Part shown: in pieces, positions 2,906-60,948 of the stretch | How the letters are laid out: each line of letters begins with the position of its first letter | Numbering within the stretch: the stretch's first letter is position 1 | From: Pomacea canaliculata | Lineage: Eukaryota; Mollusca; Gastropoda; Architaenioglossa; Ampullariidae | Direction of reading: 5' to 3' | Assembly: GCF_003073045.1 (NCBI RefSeq) | Contig: NC_037590.1 | Coordinates: forward strand, 22,656,449 to 22,720,448 | Length of the DNA: 64,000 nt | The notes under the pieces: model-generated | The model's database searches: none | Seen by the model: only the letters and a program-made list of their open reading frames with translations | What the model was told of the DNA's origin: nothing | Position numbers and translations under genes: made by a program

Positions 2906-5170
2906 CCCCCCACCACTCGCCCCTCGACCGTTCTGATGTTTAACACGCTCGAGGCCTGATGGCGTCTGCAGTAATTGACACCATTACCTGCTAATTAGTC
3001 AGGCAGATAAGCAACCCACAACAGCCACGTGGATGTCGTATTTGGCGCCGCTTTACCTAGTGACTGATCTCGGCTATTCTCATTAGTCTCGTCGTCGATG
3101 ACGAAATTAGTGTCAGCTGCCGTCACACGACTCTGGGGACCAACAAGAAGAAATAATCGTGACCTTTTCTATAAATAACTGCGGGAGCACGCTATCAAAC
3201 AAGTCGCACGCACGAATAACAGACTTCTGCATGAATACAACTCAATAACGGTGAAGGTGGGTTCGCTCAAGGGGTCAACCGTCTTTACTATCTCTCTAAA
3301 TTAACTTTTTGTCGTCCGCAGCGCCTTTCTTTTTTTTGTTTTTTGTTTTTAATTGTAGTTGCCACAGACCATTGAACCACGTTGCCAAGACGCCATGGCA
3401 ATCACTATCAGTATTTTTGTAGTTAAAAAAAAAAAAAACTCATAATACGTACCCCTCCCCAAGAAGACAGTTGATCCTCTGGAATTCGTGTGCTAAAGAG
3501 ATCGAGATAGGTAATCATCTATGCGGCAGTGGGATAAAGAACCGCACAGTATGGCCGACCTGTCCATGGATGCTGGCTTCATCAAGCCACTTTCCAGACC
3601 TCAAAACACCGATCACATGGCCGCCTTCGTGTTGACGCCGTGTGACGGGCGGTACGTAGCCATTGTGACTGGCAGCAACAGGGGTTGAGGTATTGTTGGG
3701 GGGATAGCGCATGACGAGAGGCCCCTCCGTCCTGACATTTAACCCTGACCTTCAGGCGCCACTAGTGATGCTGAGCCTGAGAATAAACACTCCTCCATCC
3801 TCGCCAGTCGATCCGCTTGAGCCCCGGGCTCTCGAAAATACACCCACTGCTGGAAGCGGGAACTCCGAGAATCGCTACTTTAAATTATTTAAATTATTAG
3901 TTGGGGTGGAAGCTGATTTCAGAAAAACTAGATCGATCTGGCCTAAAGGTATGATAAACTACTTCTTCAAATGTACGACAAACAATACTGCATCAATGTT
4001 TCGGCCATACTGCATCATGATCACCATAATATTCTTTATCAGAAGAAGCACATTTGGGATAAGTAGTTAAAAATAAAATCTTGCTGCTGCTGTAATAATA
4101 ATAATCGTCATTATCATCGCTGATGGTGATGCACCTGCATGTCGGGAAATGTTCTTGGAAGTCGGCCAAAAGGTAACGGCGGTGGGTGACTGACTCCCAA
4201 CATGTCCAGACCAACGTCAGGGAAACTCCTGAGACCGAGTATCTCAGGAACTCCGAGACAGACAGCGCATCTCTGCATTTTCCAACGGCCGTGGGCGCTT
4301 GTCCTTACTGTTGTCACCTGTCGATGCATTTAATGTTTAGAAACTTGGCTACTTGCTTCTTACTCTTGCTTATAAGGCAAGTGGTGGGTGGTAGTGGTGG
4401 TGTGTCTGTTGGAGGGTAATCTCGCAGCTGGGAGTCCGATGTCGCCATCTTCGTCCTCACTGCTACACCAGTCACCTGCTGAAACTTTTTTTTCTCTGTG
4501 AAAAGTGTCAGCCTTAAACACAACGGCATTAGTTGTGTGCTCGCCGACAACACTGCCGCTAATGGTTCTGACCTTTGGATCACAATCATCCCTCTGTAAA
4601 TCTGTTAATTTTTTTGTCGTGTGTGTGTGGGGGGTTTTCTGTTGTTTTAGGCACTGTTGCTGTAAATGGTGATGAAGCCTATGCGAGTTTAGGTAGTTTG
4701 GCCTTAACAATGCAAGCTCTGCGATAAACACTATAAAGTGATTTTTTTTGTACAGTACTTAAATTTAAATTATTATCCTGTATGTGTGCGACGCTTCTGA
4801 CTGATTTTATTACTGATTCCAATTCCAACGATTTGTTCATCATTTGCTGCAAACTTTTCGCAACAAATCCTTTTGCCAACAACTAGCACCATCACATGGT
4901 TCAATCTCTGGCTGGCATTTTGTAAATCGTGGATCGTCAGGAGCGATCGAGTAATCCACACCTGGAGATTTCGGGACTGTAATGACTCTTGCGAACCTTG
5001 CACTATTAGGTCCTCGTTATCTTATTAGTACAGAAAAAAATATTCCCGAAGTAAACATAATACACCCGAAACAAGTCTCCACCCATCGTTGAAGCCACTA
5101 TCATCACCCACCATGCTGTGAAGGCAGATAACACCCACATGGGGAGGCGCGTGCTCCTGTAAACGCCGAG

Positions 5171-17843: not shown

Positions 17844-18835
17844 TCATGTCTGGTCACCTCTTGTCTTGTTAGCAGACTCGATGATTTGCATGAGGCAACG
17901 CCCAAATTCTTCTATGACCATGCGCTCCTGAACTACAGGGGGCATCTTGAGGCGCTCAGCTTCTTCTGCCTGTGCAAGCAGACAAGCAGATGTTGCTTCT
18001 GCCACATCAGCTGTGATTAGCGTGAAAGGCAACCTGTTGGAAAATAATGCATCATTTGTACTCAGATCAGACATTTTGGCTTTGTAAAACAGTTTTGCAA
18101 TAAATGGCACAGATTTGGCAATAATCGATTTTAGTAAGCTGACCTATGTGAAGCCAGTAGTTGTGCAGACAAGGTGTGTGCATGAAATACAAGAGAGTAA
18201 GCCTATAAGCCCGTATGCATACTTATAAATAAAATCCATATTATTACCTCTCCCCACTAGCAGATGATACGGGCGGTTTGGAAGGAATGCCAGAGATCTG
18301 GGAAGACAGTTTACTTTTGGCAGCCGTTTGCTGCTGAACTCGCACTTCAGCTGCATCTGCCAGGTGCATTAGGGTTTTACGTTCAGAGCTTTCTTCAAAA
18401 TTCTTGCATCCAATACATTTGCAAAAACTGGAGCACATGATCTTTGCCTGAAATGGAACATGCAAATAAAGACACACAAATGCATAATGTAAACTACAGA
18501 GACTGCTAACATGCAGATTCATATTAAAAAGTCACAGTACTTTTTTTTAACAAAACAACGTACAAGTGAAGAATTGTTTCTTGAATGTTCCTACTTCCAT
18601 TTCACATAACTGCATCAGGACTAAGTGGATGGGTGTAGGGAGAAAAAGAAGATGATATGACAGAACTAGGCTGATGAATCTGTGCTGTCTATCCATATGT
18701 TTAAACTCACAATTAGCTGTTAAAGTTCAACTACCAAAAAAATGCATAAGAACATCACAGTGCCCTTCCCCCCTAAAATTTACAAATTACCCCTTACTGT
18801 CTTCTGGAACACAAAAATTCAAGGTTTAATCAAAC

Positions 18836-18867
<32 letters not shown>

Positions 18868-21800
18868 TCAAATCATATTACATAGTATAATCTATTCATA
18901 TGCACTTTGATGATAAAGAGATTATTAACATCAATTCTTGACAATTTTTATCTGATCATTATTTTTTTTTGCCTGAACTTAGGACATCGTAACCACTTCC
19001 ATTATTAAAGTAACATTTTTAAAAAAAGTCATTTTTTCTACTATTAAATCAATTTTTTTATCTTTTATAGTCCTAGTGAACTTTTTAAAAAAAGAGATAC
19101 ATTTTGGGACATAGACCATCTCATATGGATTATTATTTCTCACTCTTTACAGCTCACCTCATAGCACTCGCAGTAATTTTTTAAACATCCAGACCTCTTA
19201 CAGTTGCATCCTTTGTTATGACGTCTATTTCCATCATTGTCCTTTCCTTTACCTGTAAAACAGAGACACAGAACTTGCGTTTCTAAATGTTCTTTAAATT
19301 TATATCTTTGCCTGCAACACAAAGAAACAATACTTGTAGTTGTACTTCAAGATTATATCTTGCATGCCCTTTTGCCCAAATCTTTGCTACTTGGTAGATC
19401 ATGAAGAGTTTATTTCATGTTCTTGTAAAATTAACTAAAAAAAAAAAAAAACAAAAACAAAAAAAAAAATCAAGTGAACTAAGAAGTGGTAAGGGTAAAA
19501 AGTACAAAAATATTCCACAAAACACAAAATTAAAAACATACTATTTTCAACTTCGAATAATCCATATTCACATCAATTCAAGTATTCAAGTATAACAGAA
19601 TTATACAATGTGCTTACTAGAATGATTCCTTTTCTTTAATTATTCTGTAAAGCTGCATGAAAATGTCAAATCTATTGTAGCTTTAAGGAGAATTGTGTCT
19701 GTGATATACAATGAAAGCACTTTAGAATGTTCTTTCTAAATTAGTGTGAATTGTGTTTATATCAATAAAGATTATATCTAATTTTGTGAAAAGAATGAAT
19801 AGGCTGAGTAGTTTTGTTTTTCATCCTGAAGAACTATTTGCATAACTCTTAACACAAAAAGAAACAGTAATACACATTAGTCTGCCTATATATTCTGATT
19901 TGAGAGAAGGCTACATCTCTGTAAAATATTATAAGAGACCATTTCTATTCAGATTCCAGCTTATAATATCAGATACTAGAACTATTATTTTTAATCCTCT
20001 AGCAGCATTTGTCTACAAAGTATTAGACTGGAGAGACAAGTTCCCAAAATAGCATATTTCTCTGCATACTCTCTTTGTACTTGTATTTTCTGTAAATTTA
20101 TCCCGTTACTTTATATATCTTCCATAACTGTAAAAAAGCAGTGTGACTTTTGTTAAAATGTAAATACTTTTGTGTTGATGACAATCCTGTTGCATGCTAT
20201 ATAATTAATGTGTATATACCTTTGATCATTTTGTTATGCTTCCCCTTGAAACAGGCCAATGGCCTATTCAATAAAGTGATTCTGATTTTGGTTCTTAACA
20301 TAAACCATAGCATACAGACCTATTTTGGGGTGGAATGCTGTAGGATTGCGGTCAAGGCAGGATTTAATGGCTCGTGATCTCTCTTCTTCATGGTCCAAGT
20401 TGTTGGCACAGTTTGTGCAGTTACAGTTATGACAGAATTCTCCATTTGCAAAGCAGTCACAATATCTAAAAACAAAGATAACTGTTTTCAATACAATGTT
20501 TATAATATGTGAACACTTACGTACTATGGACTTCTATCGTAAACTCAAATGTGAAGACAATACACTGATACTCACAACTTTAAACACTGTGACTTGGTAC
20601 AGTTACAAGGTTTACGTGGTCTGGCCCCTGTTGCTTCCAACATAGTACTAAAGGTAAAGGAAGAGGGAAAAAAAATTATCAAACCTTCAATCCATTAAAA
20701 AAATTTTGAATTTTCTCATTGCAAATGACAAGATATAAATTAAGTGTAACCAATAAAGGTTCACCCAGTCTTGAAATAACTTTCTTAGCATATCTGTGGA
20801 ATAACATCATCAAATTGCTACACTTCAACAAGCATAAATATCCCCTTTCTACGACTCTATTACTGAATATAAAGCTGTGCCAGGCAGACAGTTTGATATG
20901 CAAAGTTTGGAAGTTCTGAGATCTGGCATGCTAAGAAGACACATAAGAAATACAGGAGAAAGACTGAAGAATGCATACCCATTAACACTGTTTCTCTGGA
21001 TAGTGTAGTTGGTTATAGCTGGGTCATTGCTTGCAATAGGCACATATTCAGACTTCTGATGCTGTGCATTCTGCTGTTGCTGTTGTTGTTGTTGCTGCTG
21101 CTGCTGCTGCGGCTGTGGTTGTGGTTGCTGTACAGTGGCTGGTTGTGAGACCTGTTGCTTATTCAGTTGCTGCTGAAACTGATATTTGTAGCATTATAAA
21201 TGGCCAATTTATACTCTCAGTCATGCAGAAATTCTCTCTCCCCTCACACACAGCCATGCAGAGATTCTTTCTCACACGCGTGCGTATGTATACACACACA
21301 CACACAGATATCTCCTATTGTAGCCAGATGCCATGATTACAGAATTATAAAACATAATCTTTTCACGATTTTCATTCTCTTCAGATATCTTGAATTCATG
21401 TGTTATAAAGACCGTAATATGCTGGATCACTACAAAATAATAAACCTTGCAATTTTCAATTTATGCGGACCATTTAAAAAGAAATATACTCTGCAAAATG
21501 ATAATGCTGCAGTTCAAAATACAACAGCTAGATACCAAATTGCAAACAACCCTCTGTGACATACATATGTTGCTCACTTACCTGTGTCACATACTGTGCA
21601 GGTACAAGGGCAAAACCTTGCAGCCCTGGAATTGTTGTGGATGGGGTGAGGAGAGTGGTGCCTGGGGGCAGCTGTGTCAAGTTGGATGTTCCTGCTGCAT
21701 GCAGGTTGGGGCGGATGGGTGTGAGTGAGGTTGGAGTGGGTGTAGTGGTAGCAATGGTGGTCACTGCTTGCATAGACATGGGAGCTGCAGGAAGGATGAT

Positions 21801-24800
21801 GCGCTGCATCGTCTGACTCCCCACCACAGTTCCTGCCTTAGCAGACTGCTGCAAAGAAGCACGTCAAGTATTTGTTAATGAAACAGCCACATATATCACC
21901 TTTTTCCACTTCTCCACCCTTTCTCTCTCACACACACACATACACACGTCAATGCATGCGCACATGCACATATATACACACAACACATGGTATTCTTACC
22001 AACTGCAAATTCTGTGAGACTGGTAGTGTGATTTTAACTTGATTGGAAGGCTGTGAAGATGTAGCAGGTGCTATCTGTCTGGTTGCTGGTATCAACTTTG
22101 CAATTGTATTAAGAGGTTTAGTGACTGAAATAGAAATTTTAAAACAAACAGTTCATTCAATTTTTTACACTAATATTAAGCTGCATGCATATAACAGGAA
22201 CACTCTTCCTCTTTCTACAGCATTACTCTTCCCCAGCATTCCCCAATTATAAAAGCTCAACTTGAAAGTTTCTCTTCTATAAACGAGTTTCAAACACTGA
22301 TAAGCTCTTCTTATCAGTATCCACACAAGGTAGTGCAGAAAACAGCAATGCAAGTAATTTTATAAACAAAATGTACAAAATAACTGTGCAAAAACAAAAT
22401 GTTGCAGCTATTTAATATTAATGACAATTTGTACAACTTAAATTTGGCAAGTAAATCATTTTTTTTGTTAAATCTTTGAAGGCAAGTTCTATGCTATGAT
22501 CAAGAAATATACCTGATGTGTGGGTAGAAGGTGATACGAGACGAACATAGTGAAATTTGCTGCCTGGCACCTGTATCTGTTGCATGGAGCTGCCTGCTGC
22601 AGACACAGGTAGCTGCAGTGTGATGGGACCCTGTGCAGCAGGAGCAATCTGTGCCTGTGTTTTAACGTGACCTTGCTTCTGCACACAGTAAAATGTAAAA
22701 TACATTACAAAATATAGCAAACTAGGTGGCTGACTGCTTACAAATAGCTCTGTTGAATGCAATCTTCTCGTTTAAGCTAACAGCACAGTCAGCTCTGCAA
22801 GAAATGTTTCTTATAAACTTTTAGGGGCTACTCTACCTACAGTTGTTAAATATTTGACCCCAAAATCTTCTGACTAAAAGATTTCTGACTGGAAACAGTA
22901 TTGTATAAATCTTTTAATTTTGGTTTTGGCAATTTCATTCGTTATTCTGGAAGAAAAAATAAAACACATGGCCAAGAGTTGCAGCTGATTGTATCTTCTG
23001 CTATGATCAAATGCTGTGGGAATTAATCTGAATGATTCAAGATCTAAAGTTTTTATTTTCACCAGGTGATTTTAAAGGTAGTAAAATCTGTCATCAGATT
23101 ATGGTCTTACTAATGATTATTCTTTACATGATTACGTAAACTAAATGCACATTCCACCTATCTGAATTATAAAAAGATGATCGCCTCATCTAAACAGACC
23201 TTCCTTCATCTGCTACTTCAATTGCTTCACGGTTTTCATTAATCTTAGTAATTCATCCAGAATTGGGGGGGGGGGGGGGAATTCCTTACAAGCAAAAGGA
23301 TAAATGTTGATCTAATTATAATGGATTTCTGGCCCACGAATGCTTTTATTTACTCTGATTTTCAGAAATAGTGTCTTACTCTCTGTGTAAGATTGCTGAT
23401 GTATTCCACTCAGCCAATGACCTATTCTGTCTCATGCCCTCTGGAGTAAGGCACAGACAACGTCCAGGCTAGAACTTCATGGCTGAGGAACAGTTACTTG
23501 CTAAAGCAGTAGCCTATATGAACTCCACTGAAGCTTGTGCTAGGACTAATACTTGAACATGTCTCTTCGTAGTCTGAGGGAATCATGTATGGTGCTAATA
23601 AGCATCCATATGTGCCTGTTTGCATGTGTTTTGATATCTATGGTGAATCTGAAATGTGTGGGTTGTGTATTGTGTATGTGAAAGAAAAACAGGGGGACAG
23701 AGAGAGAGTGAGAAAAAAAGAAATAGTGTGTGTGTGTTTGCATATATGGAAAGAATAATTTTTTATGGGTGTACAAATAATAATGCAAGTAGTGGTGTCT
23801 ACAAGTGTGAGCGGGATTGGTACAGTCGGACCTTGATAAGTCGACCTTCCCTAAGTCAAAAACCTCCCTATATCGAATTAATTGTTAGTTCCCGGCCAAA
23901 TACCTGCGCCTATTATGCCATTTTCCCTAACTTGAAAACTCCATAAGTCGATTTTTTTTTCCGGTCCCTTTGAGTTCGACTTATCGAGGTCCAACTGTAT
24001 TTGTTGAGTAAGTGACAGCCACCATCATCTAGTGTAATATCTCTTGGCAAATAAACTCAGGGCTTCTGCTAAGGCTAAATTCTTTGGGGTCCCAGAGACC
24101 CCTTCTTCAGATTTTTAAGGGATCCCTGTTCTTCACCCAAATTTGAAGGGGACCCCATTGACGAAAATTGAAGGGGTCCTCCGAACTTTTAATGCGTACT
24201 GTACGCAATTTTTCGCGTAAGCAAAAGCCCTGAAACTAATTTTTCTTCTGTTGTTACACTTGAAGATTTATAAGGGAACTAAGTCTCCAGGTAAAAGTTA
24301 TTGATTAGTATCAATATATTGATTAGTATCAATGTATTATAGCAGATAAAGATGCTCTCTTAAAATGCACTACAATTAATTTTAAACGTGATTTTTACTT
24401 AAAGTCACAATAGAGCACAAACAGTCCAAATAAGAATATTATTTTTATAAATACGTGACTTGTGCAAAAGGACATTAATGAAGCACAACCATCTAATAAG
24501 TGCTGGTAAACAGAAATAATGAATGGGGCTCTGGACATTCAGACCCAATACCACATCATGCCCAAGTACTGATACCCATTTGATGTTATCCAAACACCTG
24601 CCCGCATATGCATTTGATACAAACATACAAAAAACAGAATAATTGACAACAATGGCTTAAAATGATAAAATAACAAAAAACCCCTAAAGATACAATTCTT
24701 CCATTTGGACCCATGCATACATCTGCAGAGGAAGCTACAAAAAAATGGTGACAGCAGAGTCTGTTGCATTAAGACCTGAGCTGGTATTCAAGTCTTTATG

Positions 24801-27800
24801 TATAACCAACCTACTACAACTTACAGGCTGATCAAAATGTCAAACTTCTGCTCTGTATTACTGAAACAAGCTCCCAGGTTACAGGCTCAGCGCAAATACC
24901 AGCCCAGACTTCCCATATAATGTAGGTCACTATTTAATGGAATCATGTTCTTAAACACACAAAAAAATCCACCATCACAAGTACAATTTCTATTTCTATA
25001 GAAAATAAAGTCAAAGATAGGATTAAAATTTACATATACAATCAATGTGCACCAAGAGGGATGGGAAAAGCCTTAAATGAAGTTTTTTTGTTAAAAACAA
25101 CACAAAGTTTTTTTGTTAAAAACAACACAATCCTACAAAGAAATTGCATTTCTGCCTGGTGCAATTAACCTCAATAGGCCTCAGTGTGCAGGCAAGCACA
25201 TGTAATATTATTCAAGACCACAGTGCCAGTGAATCAACCAGTCAACAAAACAGTAATCATTTTTTTAAGAAATGTCAAGCAATTTTCTTTTTCCCCAAGT
25301 GTCTTTAAAGTGCTTTAAAGTTTGGACTGTTTGTGCTCTACTGTGACTTTAAGTCCCATGAAAATGGAATAAAAATTAAAATACTGGAAGCATTTTCAAA
25401 TCACCAAAAAAAAAAACTAACACTTACATTTGGTGCTTGCTTGATGATAACTTTAGAGGGTGACATGGTGATAGTGGCTGGTTTAGAGGTGGAAGGTGTG
25501 CTAGAGGCATTGCTGCTGGCAAGGTCACTTAAACTAGTTCTTGGCACCACAGTAATACCAGAGGTTCCAGTAGACACACCAAGTCTTTGCTGTGGAGATT
25601 TTGCAATCGACACTGGAATCATTGTAATTTTTGTGGGGGTCTTTGCTGGTGTAATGGCCATTTTGTTCACAGGGATATTCACTTTTGTAGGTGAGCCAGG
25701 CAGTGTAGCTATCACAGCTTTGCCTGGTGACACAATTCCCTGAGACGAAATGGTGACAGTTTTGGTGGGTGTCTGACTGCCTGTAGTCTGGCTGATGATG
25801 CTGACAGTGCCTGCTGATGACACCATGCTGTTGGGCAGCTGTGTCACCTGAATGGGCACAGCATGTGGTTGACTAGAGGATGGATTCCTAGTGATGATCA
25901 CTTTGGTAATTAAATTAGGATTACTGGAACCACCAGACAGGTGACGCTTCAGCACAGACTTGTCTCCACTCACCATGGCAGGAGATCCTGCCTGCATGTG
26001 GGAGGAGGACGTTGTCACAATGTGTGGAGATGCATCAATGGTGATAGTCTTCACATTACTCCCATGAGTCTCCACCACTCTGCTCACAGATGAATGTAAA
26101 AGAACCTCGTTCACAGAAACAGGCGAGGAGTTTTCAAGATGTTGCACCAAGGTCTTGCTAGATGCAGATTTATTCACATCTGCTTCAGCAGAGTTGTCGA
26201 TTTCTGGGATGCTATTAGTCATGGAAGCAGAATCATTCACAGAACCAATGGCAGCAACAGTGCCTTTGGATGAATCTTGCAATACGATGGTGTTCATTGG
26301 CAGAAAATCCACATTTTCTTCCTTTATGCCTGAAAATAAAATAGATTTTGTGTTTAGTGAAAACTGGCAACCTTACAGATGCTTTGTTTTGGTTTCTTTA
26401 TCCTAGCCAGATAAAAAAACTTAAATGACTGATTGCAAAATTAGATCACAAAACTGAAAAGGAAATTCAAACAAATTTTTATTTGCTAGTAACAAAGTGT
26501 TTAACAGACCTAACATACTGACATAAATGAAATGAAAATGAAAATATGAAAAATCAATGCTCTCAACAGTTTCAACTTTGTTTTCTCAACAAAATTATCA
26601 TTATGATCATCTCTTTTTCACACACACACAATCAAATATAGTAATCTAGAAATAATCTATGCAAGTTAATGAACAATATAACATTGCAAAAATAAGACAA
26701 ATGCTCCCTAGAAGATATTAACGCTTTTTAACATACTCAACCGGGAAAAGCTATGAAAAAATATTGTTGGAAGATTCTTTGACTACTCCACAACTTACTA
26801 ATATTCATATGGGCAGCTGGTTGAGTATGTACACATATTTTCTATTAACCCCTTATGAGTTACCAAAATATGTTTGTTTTGCTCTGTTTCAACATTAATA
26901 TTAATTCTTTTAATTATGCATGTTATCATACATTATATGCACTTGCTAATATATACATGGGTGGGTGCACATACATGTATACACATTACATTAAAAATAA
27001 AATACCTCGCGTTTTTTCTTGATGATAAAGAGTATGACAATGCAAGTTTTAAAGGGAACAAATTTTATTTTGGGGCCACCTGTCAATGTTCCATGTAACT
27101 AATATTCTGAACCACAATTGGGCAGACCTTCATATTTATTAATATAACTTTACAAAGCCCAGGTCTTATTTTAACCAATGTAAAAAAAAAAACCCTAAAA
27201 CATCCAGATTATCCAGGTCATTAAAGTCAATTTATTTATGGGCACAACTCCACATCCCATTCCCTATTGAATAGCTCAGCTCCACTCCTCTGATGAATGG
27301 AACTGTACCCAATACCTGTTAAAGCACCTACTTACTAAAGCCCACTTTCCTACCACACAAATCACATTATAACTGTTCTTAATCAACAATCATGAAACAA
27401 ATTAAAAAATACTGAATACTTCCCAACAACAAAGTATGTCCCTGTATTTATTTCCATAGTCCTGCCCAGCATTTCTACTGCAGTATAGGCTGAATGCATC
27501 CTCCACTGATGGCCGCTTATCAAATTTGAGTATTACAATTTTCATCTACATTACCTTTCCACTTTAAATTACGGAAGTTGACACATTTATCATCCTGTTA
27601 TTTGCATTTAAAAAGGATAAACTGACAAAAGTGGAATTTGCTATGGTACAAAAAAAATGAAGCAGACAATATGAAGGCAATTAATTCGTGAAGCATAAAG
27701 AATTTGTTATTTATTGTATATGGGGCACATGATATGATCTGCAAATACAAGTAGTCTTGCTGATTGTTATGGAGCGTGGGCTCAAACAAGCCTTTCAATA

Positions 27801-28464
27801 CCTACTTCGACTTTCTAAAACATATTCAAATAACACACTTTGCAATCGGCAAAATTAACAAAATAGAATTGCATGATTATCTTATTATCTCCTACTTCCT
27901 CCATAATCAAGCCCATTTTCGAAATAATGCGACCCATATAAAACCACGAGGTTTTTTTTTATGTTTGACTTGAACATGAAACATTTTAATAAATCGTACA
28001 CTATCCTGAGAGCAGCTCGCATTTGCGACAGACAATCATTATCAACACAGCCACGTAAACATAGGTTGAAAGACGCGCCATTTGCACGACAAAAATTCAG
28101 GGAAATTTGAACGCTACATTAGGTTTTGTGCGTGGAGAAAAAGGCGTATTTTCGTTAAGATACATTAAAGCGGTCATTAAGAAACTCTGACCCATCGATC
28201 TAATATGTTACAACTTTTCAGCGAGTGAACTAATCGAGTAATTTACATATTTCAGTAACCCAACAAACTCGATTATCTCCTTCGCTGTGCCATATTTACC
28301 ATAAATGGGGCGCTGACGGACGTCCAAGGGCGTGTGGTTTATTTGTAGCACCACTGCATCCAGAATGAAAGTATCTGGAAAGGGCTTGATAATGCTAATA
28401 AGAAATTTTAATTTCCTCTCCTTGAAACCCTCATCCAAGACGTACCAATTCTCTCAGCAGGCAT
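17844..28464 (-). CDS. LIN54: LIN54, CXC-domain subunit of the MuvB/DREAM complex
   Basis: LIN54 is the sequence-specific DNA-binding subunit of the MuvB core; it reads the CHR element in cell-cycle promoters. Exons in transcript order: 28464-28446, 26329-25428, 22678-22513, 22124-22000, 21848-21582, 21178-20979, 20647-20576, 20465-20320, 19252-19158, 18447-18248, 18033-17844. They sum to 2382 nt, 793 aa plus stop; human is 749. Exon 2 is Ser/Thr/Pro-rich. Exon 3 holds [16 protein letters not shown], identical to human. Exon 6 has a 13-Gln run. CXC1 (about 570-610) and CXC2 (about 645-690) are intact, with CHR-contact tyrosines Y585 and Y659 74 residues apart, as in human (536, 610). The helical C-terminal part (about 731-793) is present. 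All introns are GT-AG. Exon 1 (MPAERI, 19 nt coding) is inferred from frame and position; an in-frame ATG in exon 2 near 26297 is the alternative start. Confidence 0.95.
18841..18867. repeat. Poly-A run
   Basis: About 27 A on the plus strand within the LIN54 intron between exons 9 and 10. No element attached to it was recognised. Confidence 0.9.
20241..20278 (+). mobile_element. 3' tail of a retroposon, copy 1
   Basis: CCCCTTGAAACAGGCCAATG, then GCCTATTCAATAAAG. A diverged copy of the same tail lies at 62511-62545. The core GGCCNATGGCC is self-complementary and AATAAA follows. It sits antisense in LIN54 intron 8, about 40 bp from exon 8. Whether it is a SINE or a LINE 3' end cannot be told. 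Confidence 0.55.
21071..21109 (-). repeat. CAG/CAA repeat encoding 13 Gln in LIN54
   Basis: Thirteen glutamine codons in LIN54 exon 6, mixed CAG and CAA, followed by further Gln/Pro-rich sequence. The interruptions by CAA would limit slippage. Confidence 0.95.
23265..23279. repeat. Poly-G run
   Basis: Fifteen G in a row in LIN54 intron 2. Length may be unreliable in an assembly. Confidence 0.9.
23821..23999. mobile_element. Pogo/Tigger-like MITE, 179 bp
   Basis: Starts TACAGTCGGACCTTGATAAG and ends with the reverse complement of TACAGTTGGACCTCGATAAG. The terminal inverted repeats match over about 25 bp with few changes and are flanked by the TA typical of Tc1/mariner/pogo integration. There is no coding capacity. 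It lies in LIN54 intron 2. Confidence 0.85.
24058..24232. mobile_element. Small TIR element, hAT-like MITE, 175 bp
   Basis: Left end CAGGGCTTCTGCTAA; right end is the reverse complement of CAGGGCTTTTGCTTA. CAGGG termini are common in hAT elements. AAACT occurs on both sides, but a clean 8-bp duplication was not seen. Internally there are three GGGGTCC-type motifs. It lies 58 bp right of the pogo-like MITE. Confidence 0.7.
24250..24620 (+). repeat. Unclassified interspersed repeat, copy A
   Basis: Matches 62787-63610 in the same orientation: TTGAAGATTTATAAGGGAAC against TTGAAGATTTGTAGGGGAAC at the left, and CCCAATACCACATCAT at 24544 against 63580 at the right, with recognisable similarity in between. 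Family not named. It overlaps the left arm of the inverted repeat at 24399. Confidence 0.6.
24399..25352. repeat. Inverted repeat with TTAA ends, MITE-like, 954 bp
   Basis: The left arm (24399-24430) begins TTAAAGTCACAATAGAGCAC and the right arm (25321-25352) is its reverse complement with one difference over about 32 bp. TTAA at both outer edges fits piggyBac-type integration. However, repeat copy A continues leftward across the left TTAA and also matches inside it, which argues against a simple insertion. The interior holds a perfect 25-bp tandem duplication (25080-25104, 25105-25129). No transposase is seen. Confidence 0.55.
26330..28445 (-). other. LIN54 intron 1
   Basis: A/T-rich, with donor GTACGT at 28445 and acceptor AG at 26331-26330 (minus strand), if exon 1 is right. 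It contains a stop-free stretch on the minus strand at about 28208-28456 discussed in the findings. Otherwise nothing was recognised. Confidence 0.6.
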
Positions 28465-28717
28465 TTTGTAATTGTTCAAAATCACGCGCCCACCATTACC
28501 ATCCCATAATAGTTGACCATTTTTTTTTTTCTCCACAACGACGCAGGATCGGTGTAAAGGAATTTATAAATCTTAATTAAATAAAGAATAGTACATATTC
28601 TTCTTAATAAAGCTTTTATATTTAAAAGAATATCAATATCATAGTGACAGGTTTTTTTTTTTTAGGTTCGGCAGTTCACCTACGGAAGATTTTGTGCAGT
28701 GCTTCCTAGAGTCAAAG
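28465..28717. promoter_or_regulatory. Bidirectional promoter of LIN54 and COPS4
   Basis: The 253 bp between the proposed LIN54 ATG (minus) and the COPS4 ATG (plus). No TATA box is obvious. The LIN54-proximal end holds a CDE/CHR-like composite (28475-28491). A T run lies at 28520-28531. The transcription start sites are not known, so part of this is 5' UTR. Confidence 0.7.
28475..28491 (-). promoter_or_regulatory. CDE-4 nt-CHR-like site facing LIN54
   Basis: On the minus strand the sequence is GGGCGCG-TGAT-TTTGAA. TTTGAA is the canonical CHR bound by LIN54. A GC-rich CDE half-site (bound through E2F/DP in DREAM) is normally placed exactly four bases upstream, as in CDK1 and CDC25C promoters. 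Composition, spacing and orientation all fit. Its edge is 10 nt from the proposed ATG, so either the leader is very short or the true start is in exon 2. Confidence 0.5.
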
Positions 28718-35775
<7,058 letters not shown>

Positions 35776-49431: not shown

Positions 49432-49504
49432 GCCCGGTTAGCTCAGTCGGTAGAGCATCAGACTTTTAATCTGAGGGTCGTGGGTTCAAGTCCCACATTG
49501 GGCG
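49432..49504 (+). tRNA. tRNA-Lys(UUU), copy 1
   Basis: 73 nt without CCA. Acceptor stem GCCCGGT pairs with ATTGGGC (one G-U pair from the T, one more G-U), D arm with GCTCAGTCGGTAGAGC, anticodon stem TCAGA/TCTGA around loop CTTTTAA with anticodon TTT, and T arm GTGGG-TTCAAGT-CCCAC fully paired. The discriminator base is G. A T8 run 10 nt downstream is a Pol III terminator. No intron. Confidence 0.97.
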
Positions 49505-50769: not shown

Positions 50770-50842
50770 GCCCGGTTAGCTCAGTCGGTAGAGCATCAGA
50801 CTTTTAATCTGAGGGTCGCGGGTTCAAGTCCCACATCGGGCG
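50770..50842 (+). tRNA. tRNA-Lys(UUU), copy 2
   Basis: 73 nt, same anticodon and D arm as copy 1, differing at two positions. The acceptor stem is better paired (ATCGGGC), but the T stem is GCGGG against CCCAC, so one C-A mismatch. TTTTT follows 5 nt downstream. Probably functional, though the mismatch makes this less sure than for copy 1. Both genes are preceded by GTGA. Confidence 0.93.
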
Positions 50843-56800: not shown

Positions 56801-59609
56801 TAATGTTTTTCAATCCTAGTGTGCAAGTATTTCACCCTGAAAAGTCCCTTAGGGGCGTGCGGCAGCCAGCGTTAGAAGGTTCAGATCTCATCTCCTGGCA
56901 CTCCTGCTTCTCTCTCTAGATATCGCACCTATTCACAGGGCTGGAGGTCGAGGTTCTCGACATTGGTTGCTCCCATTTCCCACACCCACCCCAGCACCGT
57001 CTCTCCCTCTAGTGCAAAATCGCTTGTAGTTGGAAGTATTTGTCAACCAAATTAAACCAACTAATCAAGGTCACAGCTGATTGACACAGTGGGACACTAA
57101 TTGATGGTAGCTCTTTCCTCATCAACAGATTCAGTTGATCTATCTCAAAAGTATACTGTCTCCTTAGCCCACAAAAAAAAGATAGCAAGTATATATTTAT
57201 ATAGCTCTCTCTCTCTTTATACCTGACCATCTATACGACCTCTTTATCTAAAAATCTAAAAACATATGTTTGCTCGCTCTCCATTGAAAAATACATCACG
57301 GTTCCACCTGAGCTTTTTGCGGAAATTAGAGCAGAACGAACTGATACGCTTAAATGAATCTTATAAACATATGACTGTTCAAGAGATTTTTATCTTGATT
57401 TATTCAAAGCTCGTCTGAACTTGCACACACAGATACAACCGATTTATAATTCACTTGAGTATACAACCGCTAAGGATAGGTGGTGGTTGTGATGCAGGGC
57501 GGGGAGGAATATACATATACATAAAGAAGGTAGCGGTGTGTGTAGGGGGTGGGTACGTGGGAGAGCTCTCCGTTGTGATCACAACTCCCCCTTAACAATT
57601 ACATCTCCGTAAGGTTAAAATGTGAGATTTTATCAACTACCATATGTTTCGGTTAGAAGCAATCAGAGCTAGGCTATATGTTGGAGACAAATACGGTTCG
57701 ATAAGTCTAATAAAGAGCAGACTCAGGAACTATAGTGCGACTGTCTGCAACACGAATCTAATTAGATTTCTTCGGAACTGGATCAAATGTGCGCAGACGC
57801 AGATTATCTCTTCGCTACAATCTAGCAGCATCTACATCCAAATTAGATTAAATCTTTATAGCATAGTCTAACCATATGTAGTTCTTTAATCCGGTCTTGT
57901 ACGCCGTCCCGCGTGAGACCTACATTACAACGGAAGCAGCAAGCACGCTAGCTGCCTCTCAAAAGGCCAGCAGTTAGCGAGAGACGTGAAGCCGGCGATT
58001 GTCAGAATAAATAAGCTGTTGAACTGGCTTCCGACAAAATGAGCGTTCCAGGAGGCAAAAACGCGCATGTGAGTCAGTCATACTCGTAATCAAGTAACAA
58101 GTATATATAGCATGTCAGCGAGCTTTAGTTGTTGTGTTAAATCGTGTTGAAACTGGTTTGCCAACGTCAACGTGATACCGTTTTTCTTTTTTTTTTTTTT
58201 TTTCTCCAAACAAGGATTCCTTGATCGAGTATTTTTCATGCTACTTACTCCTTTTCACACACACCGCTCTAACTAAAGTGAGGACTCACTGAGGAGAAGT
58301 GAGAAATGGATCGCTTATCATCATGAGCCAATCAAATCACAGCTTCCTCCCGGCTCGGACAAATTGTTTCACCGAGAGCAGAGTGAGGAGAAAATGGGTC
58401 AGTACGTAAGGTGCTGCGGCTAAATCTAAAAAGATAATTTATCATTGCAATTTTCTTAGTATTAAGCTTTATCTTCAAAAAAGCAAACGACATAAATTGT
58501 TTAATCATCGATTCGTATTCGTATTTCCCCGTATTTCTTGTAGATTTCGGGGTTTTCTTGCTGCCATGTATGTAAATTCTCCTAACGAAGGGATTCTCCG
58601 AATGTGTTGTGGTCGGCAGCCATATTTGAAAAAGACGGCTTCATCTTGCTCGACAACTGCCATACTTGAATTTCATCTAATTTTCCTGATTGACTGGAAA
58701 ACTGTTGTGGCATCATACTTTTGTGAATTGTAGATAAACATTAACTGATTAAGTATTTTTTATTGTTCGATTTTCATCTTGGGTGAGTATACTTTAAAAT
58801 GTGCATTATGTATTGCATTCCGCGGGTTAATTTTCGGCCTCTTCGTTGTAAACAATCCCACCTTGAGATTAAAAAACTGCGTTTCTAGATATATAACTGC
58901 TTTATTTGCCAAGTTCTGGCGACAGACAAAGACATAAGTGTATGCCGATTTATCAACACTTGTGTTAATATGTCCGGAATCGAGAGATTCTGAAAAAAAA
59001 ATTGTTAGAGTAAGGTAAAATATCCGCCATCTTGATACACAGACTGCTGCTGCAGTGCTTACCGTTTTGTCATTTTCCTCAGGTTTTCATTGTTATACAG
59101 CAGTAAAATAACATATACATATTATTAATGCATGAAAAAGATATTTAGAAGATAGTTTTCTTCAAGTCAAATTGATATATATTTTTTGTTACCGTCTCAT
59201 TGTCCTGAGTCTTGTTGAAATGTTTCTTTGTTCACCGGCAACAACCGTGGATTTTTTTTAAAGTTCACTTTATTTGGGAATAAGTTTGAATGTATTAATT
59301 TATAATTTAAAAATTGAAGAATTAAATTTTTAATGCTTTACATTTAAAAAAAATCTTTTCAGATGTGGTCTCCCTGCTGTTTTCATTTTCACAAGGAGTG
59401 GAAATGTCAACCATTCAGAGCGAGGACGACGACAGCGATGCACCTTGTTTTCACTGGTTAAAAGCAGACGGATGACATTCAGTCTATTTTTTCTAGCAAT
59501 GCGAACAACCCGCCTAAACGTGTGTATAACTTTCTTTGTGGAAATTTCTTTCTTACTTCGTCAACAGACTATATATTTTTGTGACTGTTAAGCTCCGGCA
59601 GAAGCCATA
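50843..59609. other. ADK-KAT6 intergenic region, right part
   Basis: About 8.8 kb, with GC-rich patches (51,560-52,760; 55,080-55,560; 56,340-56,900) and A/T-rich stretches. Open frames in the GC-rich patches (such as 56358-56819 plus, 51585-51902 plus) show no domain or conserved motif. Regulatory DNA for KAT6 is likely here but cannot be pinpointed. The last 200 bp probably include the KAT6 5' leader. Confidence 0.45.
56878..56950 (+). mobile_element. SINE family 2, copy 4 (B-box part)
   Basis: GGTTCAGATCTCATCTC is identical to the start of the copy at 39397, followed by a decayed body and CACAGGGCTGG. The 3' block is missing. Confidence 0.6.
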
Positions 59610-59666
59610 ATGGCGCGCGACAGAGTTGCGTATTGCTACTTGTTGAGAGACAGACTGTCAACGTAG
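59610..59666 (+). promoter_or_regulatory. Upstream ORF in the KAT6 leader
   Basis: ATAATGG context (A at -3, G at +4) starts an 18-codon frame (MARDRVAYCY...) that ends in TAG 32 nt before the KAT6 ATG. If the transcript includes it, it would be expected to dampen KAT6 translation. Whether it lies in the transcript is not known. Confidence 0.45.
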
Positions 59667-59698
59667 ACGAAAGGCGCGGGTCATTCAAAATTGCCAGC

Positions 59699-60307
59699 AT
59701 GGTGAAGGAGAACGAAACAAATCACGTCCAGGCAAATGCCACATATACAGCATGGCTGTTACAGGCTATAGCCAAAATCAAACAGCAGAAACAGCGTCCC
59801 AACGAAGAGCGGATATGCAATGCTATACAGGCCAACCACAAAGTGACCCGAGACGCTATTTTGGAGCAGCTTTCCCTTGCGGTAAAGGATGGAAGCATTT
59901 TAGCAGTGCAGAACAAAGGTATTACTTCATACAAAGATCCCAGCTCCCTTTGCCAGTTACAGACGCGCAGTTTGGAAGTCACACCTCAAACTGATCTCAC
60001 CAAGGTGGTTATTCGATCTGTACGTGAACTTGGGGAAAAGGGTGGATCAACTATTCGTAGCATTGAGAAGTACATCAAGAGCAGCTACCGTATCACCTTT
60101 TTGGATGGTGCTAATCTCAACCACTTGTTGAAGGTACAGATTAAGAGAATTGTGAAAAATGGACATTTGAAACAAGAAGGTGCCCATCTGAAGCTGGGAA
60201 CTTCAAGTACTTCTGACACAAGCAATGGTGTTTCAGCCTCAAAATCTGTTAAAGTTAACGAGGACATAGACCTCAATGACATCATACTGCCATTTGAAAG
60301 ACATAGG
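59699..60307 (+). CDS. KAT6: KAT6 (MOZ/MORF-type) histone acetyltransferase, first coding exon
   Basis: KAT6A/B are MYST-family acetyltransferases of histone H3 working in a complex with BRPF proteins. This exon gives 203 residues in phase 0. Residues 16-81 match the N-terminal SAMD1-like winged helix of human KAT6A (YTEWILEAIKKVKKQKQRP in human, YTAWLLQAIAKIKQQKQRP here; also EERICNA and VKDG-IL). Residues about 98-167 are the H15-like winged helix (GGST-RSIE). The start ATG has G at +4 and gives MVKEN, matching human MVKLAN. Donor GTGAGT at 60308. PHD fingers and the MYST domain must lie beyond 64000. Which vertebrate paralogue it corresponds to cannot be said; invertebrates usually have one. 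It follows ADK on the same strand. Confidence 0.93.
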
Positions 60308-60948
60308 GTGAGTTTTATTTTCATTATTATGAAAGAAAAGACTTTCATTGTGGTTAGCTGTATGTGGCTTGTTTCACATTTTGTAATTTTCATTTGTTTT
60401 TATAGTATTACATTTCAGTTTAAGTTTTAGAGTATGAAAAAGTAGCCTATAGTTTTTAACTTTAAATCATTAATTTCTTCTTCAATAGTTTTTAAAAAAA
60501 ATAAATAATCAAGGGCTGTCACAGTATTGCATAGTTTTGTTTGCATGCATGAAAAAAACCTTTTGATGTTTAAAGAAAAAAGAACAATATATGGAAATCT
60601 AAAACAGTCTGTTAAAAAGTACAAAGCAAACTTTTTTCTTGGGAGTTAATACTGTAAAATTCTAGCTGCTTGAAGCTCAAATCATGCCTAACAGTATAAA
60701 ACTGACATTATCTGCAGTCCTGTAGACTGTAAAATGACATCTTATACATTATTTCCATCTAGCCATTTGCTTTTGTAACATTTCTAGTGCTGCATTTCTG
60801 ATTTGAAAAAACTTTTTTCCACAAAAAAGTTTAGCAGTCATATGGTATGTAGACAGAGATGATTAATATCAGAGGCAAGAGACCATTTGTAAACTCATTT
60901 TAGTTAGCATCACAGCAGTTGGCATTGCCTTACAGAGAACAGTGAAGA

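Follow-up and report, generated by a model that had tools for sequence, protein, structure and literature searches.

LIN54 and COPS4 are divergent neighbours in the genome of the snail Pomacea canaliculata, occupying 17844-30205 of a 64,000-nucleotide stretch of contig NC_037590.1 (assembly GCF_003073045.1), which we call the window. Between the two genes, the minus strand (the LIN54 strand) reads GGGCGCG-TGAT-TTTGAA from 28491 to 28475, and this is the sole exact match within the window. A first-pass annotation had reported exactly this string and had read it as a cell-cycle-dependent element (CDE) followed at four bases by a cell-cycle genes homology region (CHR), that is, as a site through which the MuvB/DREAM complex would control the gene for its own subunit LIN54 and perhaps COPS4. 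The string is where it was said to be; the analysis presented here favours, with a probability of roughly 0.6, the view that its resemblance to a CDE/CHR site is incidental.

Both gene names are correct, as the annotation had them. The first two CXC exons match human LIN54 (PDB 5fd3; E-values 3e-23 and 9e-15), the third (18244-18531) gives a Pfam TCR match below the family cut-off, and COPS4 is identified by the COP9 signalosome subunit 4 match of a later exon (Table 1). The snail LIN54 retains YCDC and NYCEC motifs, which presumably, as in the human protein, contain the two DNA-contacting tyrosines; with the tyrosines placed in this way, two CXC domains equipped to contact DNA are present. 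Two LIN54 tyrosines contact the CHR (PMC4974476). No Pfam family matches the most upstream coding exon found on the LIN54 strand; judging from its strand, position and open frame, it presumably belongs to LIN54, with no further coding exon upstream. The annotation had LIN54 starting at the string: the identity of the gene holds, but the first in-frame methionine found (26297) is 2178 bases away, and a coding start close to the string would be possible only with an additional exon beyond those located. The distance to the COPS4 ATG (28718), measured from the GC block, is 227 bases.

The string lies in a zone of normal CpG content: in bins of 200 bases the observed/expected ratio is 0.87-1.5 between 27.8 and 29.2 kb, as against 0-0.44 in the flanking bins of the 27-30 kb region. 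This zone is probably an ordinary CpG-normal divergent promoter of COPS4 and LIN54. CpG content alone is no proof of a promoter, because 19 such pieces cover 21,050 of the 64,000 bases of the window, although 27700-29200 is the sole piece between 7.25 and 36.8 kb. A bidirectional promoter would have its two starts no more than about 1 kb apart, in CpG-normal DNA; the divergent genes and the zone between them agree with the shared promoter proposed in the first-pass annotation, which is a probable one. On the plus strand, no splice donor above 3.2 bits was found in 27.5-28.72 kb, and COPS4 transcription therefore probably begins slightly upstream of its ATG. For LIN54, the best donor-like junction, at 28494 (Table 1), and a second candidate at 27555 (7.1 bits) score nearly equally, so that neither can be preferred as the end of the first exon.

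Table 1. Features of the LIN54/COPS4 locus (window positions)
Feature	Position	Strand	Basis
Candidate LIN54/MuvB site TTTGAA (a perfect CHR)	28475..28480	-	sequence match
TGAT spacer	28481..28484	-	read from sequence
GGGCGCG, CDE-like GC block, no TTTSSCGS E2F consensus	28485..28491	-	sequence match
Top-scoring donor-like junction on LIN54 strand, 26.4-28.7 kb	28493..28494	-	7.3 bits, last exon base 28494; prediction only
CpG-normal zone, probable shared COPS4/LIN54 promoter	27700..29200	.	zone finder and CpG bins
Exon taken to be the first coding exon of COPS4 (ATG 28718, donor after 28800)	28718..28800	+	position and the human COPS4 N-terminus; no family match of its own
COPS4 later exon	30056-30205	+	COP9 signalosome subunit 4 match, E-value 1e-14
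Most upstream LIN54-strand coding exon found	25405..26330	-	acceptor before 26330, first in-frame ATG 26297; low-end boundary approximate
LIN54 CXC (tesmin) DNA-binding exons	18244..20533 (within 20267-20533, 19143-19346, 18244-18531)	-	Pfam TCR

With respect to its letters, the string contains a canonical CHR hexamer, which is one of four copies of TTTGAA in 27700-29200; the zone also holds 14 hexamers that belong to the ten CHR variants published in PMC4705690. The GC block fits less well. The spacing of exactly four bases claimed in the annotation is obtained only if the final G of GGGCGCG is included in the CDE; the strict form SGCGS-N4-TTYGAA has no match in the window, and the LIN54/COPS4 string matches once spacers of three to five bases are permitted. 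The E2F consensus TTTSSCGS is absent from both strands of 27700-29200.

Chance rates were estimated from 2000 dinucleotide shuffles of 27801-29200, which is 1.4 kb of the CpG-normal zone. TTTGAA alone was present in 92% of the shuffles, in agreement with the annotation's own caution that the hexamer is common by chance. At least one CDE-like 4- or 5-mer stood three to five bases ahead of TTYGAA in 4.6%, at least one GCG stood three to six bases ahead of it in 11%, and the strict form, of which the real sequence has none, occurred in 0.5%. The exact pattern of the string appeared in 0 of 2000 shuffles, a figure for a pattern picked after it had been seen. When two mismatches were allowed, the whole window gave two matches against a mean expectation of 0.65, with at least two in 15 of 100 shuffles.

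Patterns of this kind were counted over the whole genome (440,159,624 bases in 24 contigs), the patterns written backwards serving as controls. The 17-base string pattern occurs four times, and its reverse three times. Of the other exact copies, one (locus L003) is in what appears, from its open frames, to be a reverse-transcriptase repeat, and two (L002 and L004) have surroundings with no gene recognisable by eye, no family search having been made. The 15-mer GCGCGTGATTTTGAA has a second copy on contig C6 (L039), in CpG-normal DNA that likewise shows no gene recognisable by eye, again with no family search. The register seen at LIN54/COPS4, GCGCG-N4-TTTGAA, is unenriched: it was counted 99 times, as compared with 431 for spacers of five to eight bases (about 108 per spacing), the backwards counts being 80 and 326. 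A general excess of CDE-CHR pairs was also looked for, and none was seen (GGCGG-N0-12-TTTGAA, 1706; backwards, 2017).

A further comparison was made with seven 10-kb stretches of the same genome that carry CKS (two), SMC-type (four) and NDC80 (one) genes. Human CKS1B, CKS2, SMC2, SMC4 and NDC80 are all in the table of DREAM-CHR targets (PMC4705690). The stretches comprise both of the CKS matches, the one NDC80 match and 4 of 11 SMC_N matches, namely those near the profile start, which were followed upstream; NUF2 was also sought in the snail genome as a comparison gene and was not found. In the 23.8 kb of CpG-normal DNA at these loci, GCG-N3-6-TTYGAA occurs twice, both times at the NDC80 locus, which is about the shuffle rate, and this tandem thus does not mark the comparison loci. 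E2F sites may mark them: TTTSSCGS 8-mers number 11 in the same 23.8 kb and one in the 21.05 kb of window zones. The density of TTTGAA in CpG-normal DNA is 1.85 per kb at the comparison loci and 0.86 per kb in the window, with the four copies of the LIN54/COPS4 zone falling within 1.5 kb; over their full 70 kb, however, the comparison stretches hold 122 copies and are thus richer in the hexamer as a whole than the window, which has 74 in its 64 kb. One comparison locus (L022) has a strict-register tandem with TTTAAA in place of the canonical hexamer, GGCGC-N4-TTTAAA, and the CpG zones of the window hold one other match to SGCGS-N4-TTYRAA, outside the LIN54 zone. At LIN52 (L041), neither an E2F site nor a tandem was present in the 3 kb surrounding one internal exon.

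A separate observation concerns 3948-3971 of the NDC80 locus (L025). There, some 3.3 kb upstream of the exon that encodes the NDC80 domain, the minus strand carries GCGCCAAA, a reversed E2F consensus, followed after ten bases by TTTGAA. This composite lies in CpG-normal DNA and resembles a DREAM site more than the LIN54 string does.

We suggest that the string is most likely an incidental look-alike. The region is AT-rich, which makes TTTGAA common, and its CpG-normal DNA supplies GCG blocks; the two standing within a few bases of each other are therefore not very rare. The annotation had held the string to be notable beyond chance on account of its spacing, GC block and position, and this finds no clear support: the GC block departs from the strict register, the tandem in the form seen here is unenriched both in the genome and at the seven comparison loci, and the zone has no consensus E2F site. 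MuvB presumably does not bind at the string itself, while MuvB/DREAM may still bind the LIN54/COPS4 promoter, to judge from worm, fly and human.

Several points weigh against an incidental origin. The exact string is rare, and of the two divergent genes that flank it, LIN54 encodes the reader of the hexamer. The CDE-like and the GCG tandem patterns each count two in the real sequence, for which the shuffles give P(>=2) of 0.009 and 0.0055, although in both cases a single site is being read twice over; for GCG or CGC three to six bases ahead of TTYRAA the count is four, with P(>=4) of 0.0135 and P(>=1) of 0.42. In CDK1 and CDC25C the register is GCGG-N4-TTTGAA, and this form occurs 616 times in the snail genome, as against 1820 for spacers of zero to three bases (455 per spacing) and 2038 for five to eight (510 per spacing). 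The excess may hint that the snail, or molluscs, use a CDE/CHR spacing code; we regard it as suggestive only, because the backwards controls also shift with spacing (518 for N4; 1630, or 408 per spacing, for N0-3; 2372, or 593 per spacing, for N5-8). The CpG context of the GCGG-N4 places is mixed, with 3 of 13 at 0.88 or above over 400 bases (13 read of 100 listed, out of 616). The comparison loci are themselves rough: the SMC types are not told apart, one of them resembling SMC4 by a motif that we presume to be diagnostic; the starts are unmapped; in L022 and L024 the CpG zones take up over half the length; and at one CKS locus (L020) the E2F match is probably within a coding exon. Finally, the requirements for a CDE may be loose. 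The CDE is described as lacking a sharp consensus (PMC4705690), and three or four base pairs is the closest approach permitted in a structural model (PMC4974476). Because the human MKI67 CDE overlaps TTAGCGCC (PMC8629999), a GCGC-type block may be acceptable as a CDE.

One alternative is that the string is a functional MuvB site, which we consider possible but doubtful. LIN54 would then bind TTTGAA within DREAM in resting cells and within Myb-MuvB in cycling cells, with E2F/DP touching the GC block, and the complex would adjust the output of LIN54, and perhaps of COPS4, through the shared promoter. A perfect CHR inside a CpG-normal zone between divergent genes is consistent with such a role, as is the retention of YCDC and NYCEC in the snail protein. 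The string also resembles the CDE/CHR tandem of class I DREAM sites (CDK1, CDC25C, TTK and MKI67) in having TTTGAA with a GC-rich block upstream, between gene starts; it differs in that GCGCG directly precedes the four-base spacer, one base off the GCGG-N4 of CDK1 and CDC25C. The chance rates, the register, the lack of enrichment and the missing E2F consensus given above all argue against this role.

The concept of DREAM self-regulation is sound and has already been published for worm, fly and human. DREAM binds the promoters of its own subunit genes in all three, and LIN-54-bound promoters contain a hybrid E2F-LIN54 motif (Motif 1 of worm and fly; PMC3093354). The snail string is similar to Motif 1 in that an E2F-like half comes first and a CHR-like half second, a likeness drawn from the description of the motif, but it is without the E2F consensus. 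The same source reports that in fly and worm the subunit genes changed little in expression when LIN-54 was depleted, which speaks against functional weight for such a site. The 210 DREAM-CHR candidate targets include human LIN54, LIN9 and MYBL2, each of which is bound by DREAM and has a CHR that placental mammals conserve, and do not include COPS4 (PMC4705690). Human LIN54, a candidate target in the p53-p21-DREAM-CHR scheme (Table 1 of that paper), is thus the same gene with a CHR near its start and with self-regulation implied; however, the human entry rests on chromatin immunoprecipitation, expression and mammalian conservation, whereas the snail site, including its likeness to the class I tandem, rests on sequence only. 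Of 11 papers that mention two of LIN54, COPS4 and a bidirectional promoter, none mentions all three, and a search for molluscs with the DREAM complex and LIN54 turned up a single paper, on Myb. The annotation's proposal that MuvB/DREAM controls its own subunit is well founded as a concept, but the sequence offers nothing to link it to this snail string.

A stronger version, which we think improbable, is that MuvB at the LIN54/COPS4 site feeds back on LIN54, couples COPS4 to the cell cycle and has kept the pair together since the bilaterian ancestor. As far as is known, LIN54 and COPS4 are arranged head to head in vertebrates. Region lists place the two genes together in short regions of human chromosome 4, chicken chromosome 4 and mouse chromosome 5, and it is because of this shared listing that we regard their closeness as old. 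If the string were a functional site, DREAM self-regulation as known from worm, fly and human would extend to molluscs, and shared control would suggest why LIN54 and COPS4 remain neighbours; at present it is a single candidate, of a kind that chance would produce in a few percent of cases.

Another scenario, also improbable, is that the string is part of the transcribed LIN54 5′ leader or the start of an intron, its GC bases being placed for splicing or for the leader and not for DREAM. The donor-like junction after 28494 (ATG/GTGGGC) would, if used, put the string just inside LIN54 intron 1 and make GTGGGCGCG the first bases of that intron; its score falls within the range of donors at plausible exon ends of both genes (4.3 to 12.7 bits), the acceptor before 26330 fits the existence of an upstream exon, and GGGCGCG also closes a 12-codon open frame, but the donor, a prediction from the DNA letters, is mediocre and has a near-equal rival at 27555.

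Elsewhere in the window, an open frame on the plus strand (59585-60430) has SAMD1-type winged helix and linker-histone domains, in an order that we take to be the N-terminal layout of the KAT6A/B acetyltransferases. An open frame with DUF6451 on the minus strand (32706-33278) resembles, by eye, the reverse-transcriptase-like repeat at L003. Two tRNA-Lys(TTT) genes are located on the plus strand at 49432-49504 and 50770-50842.
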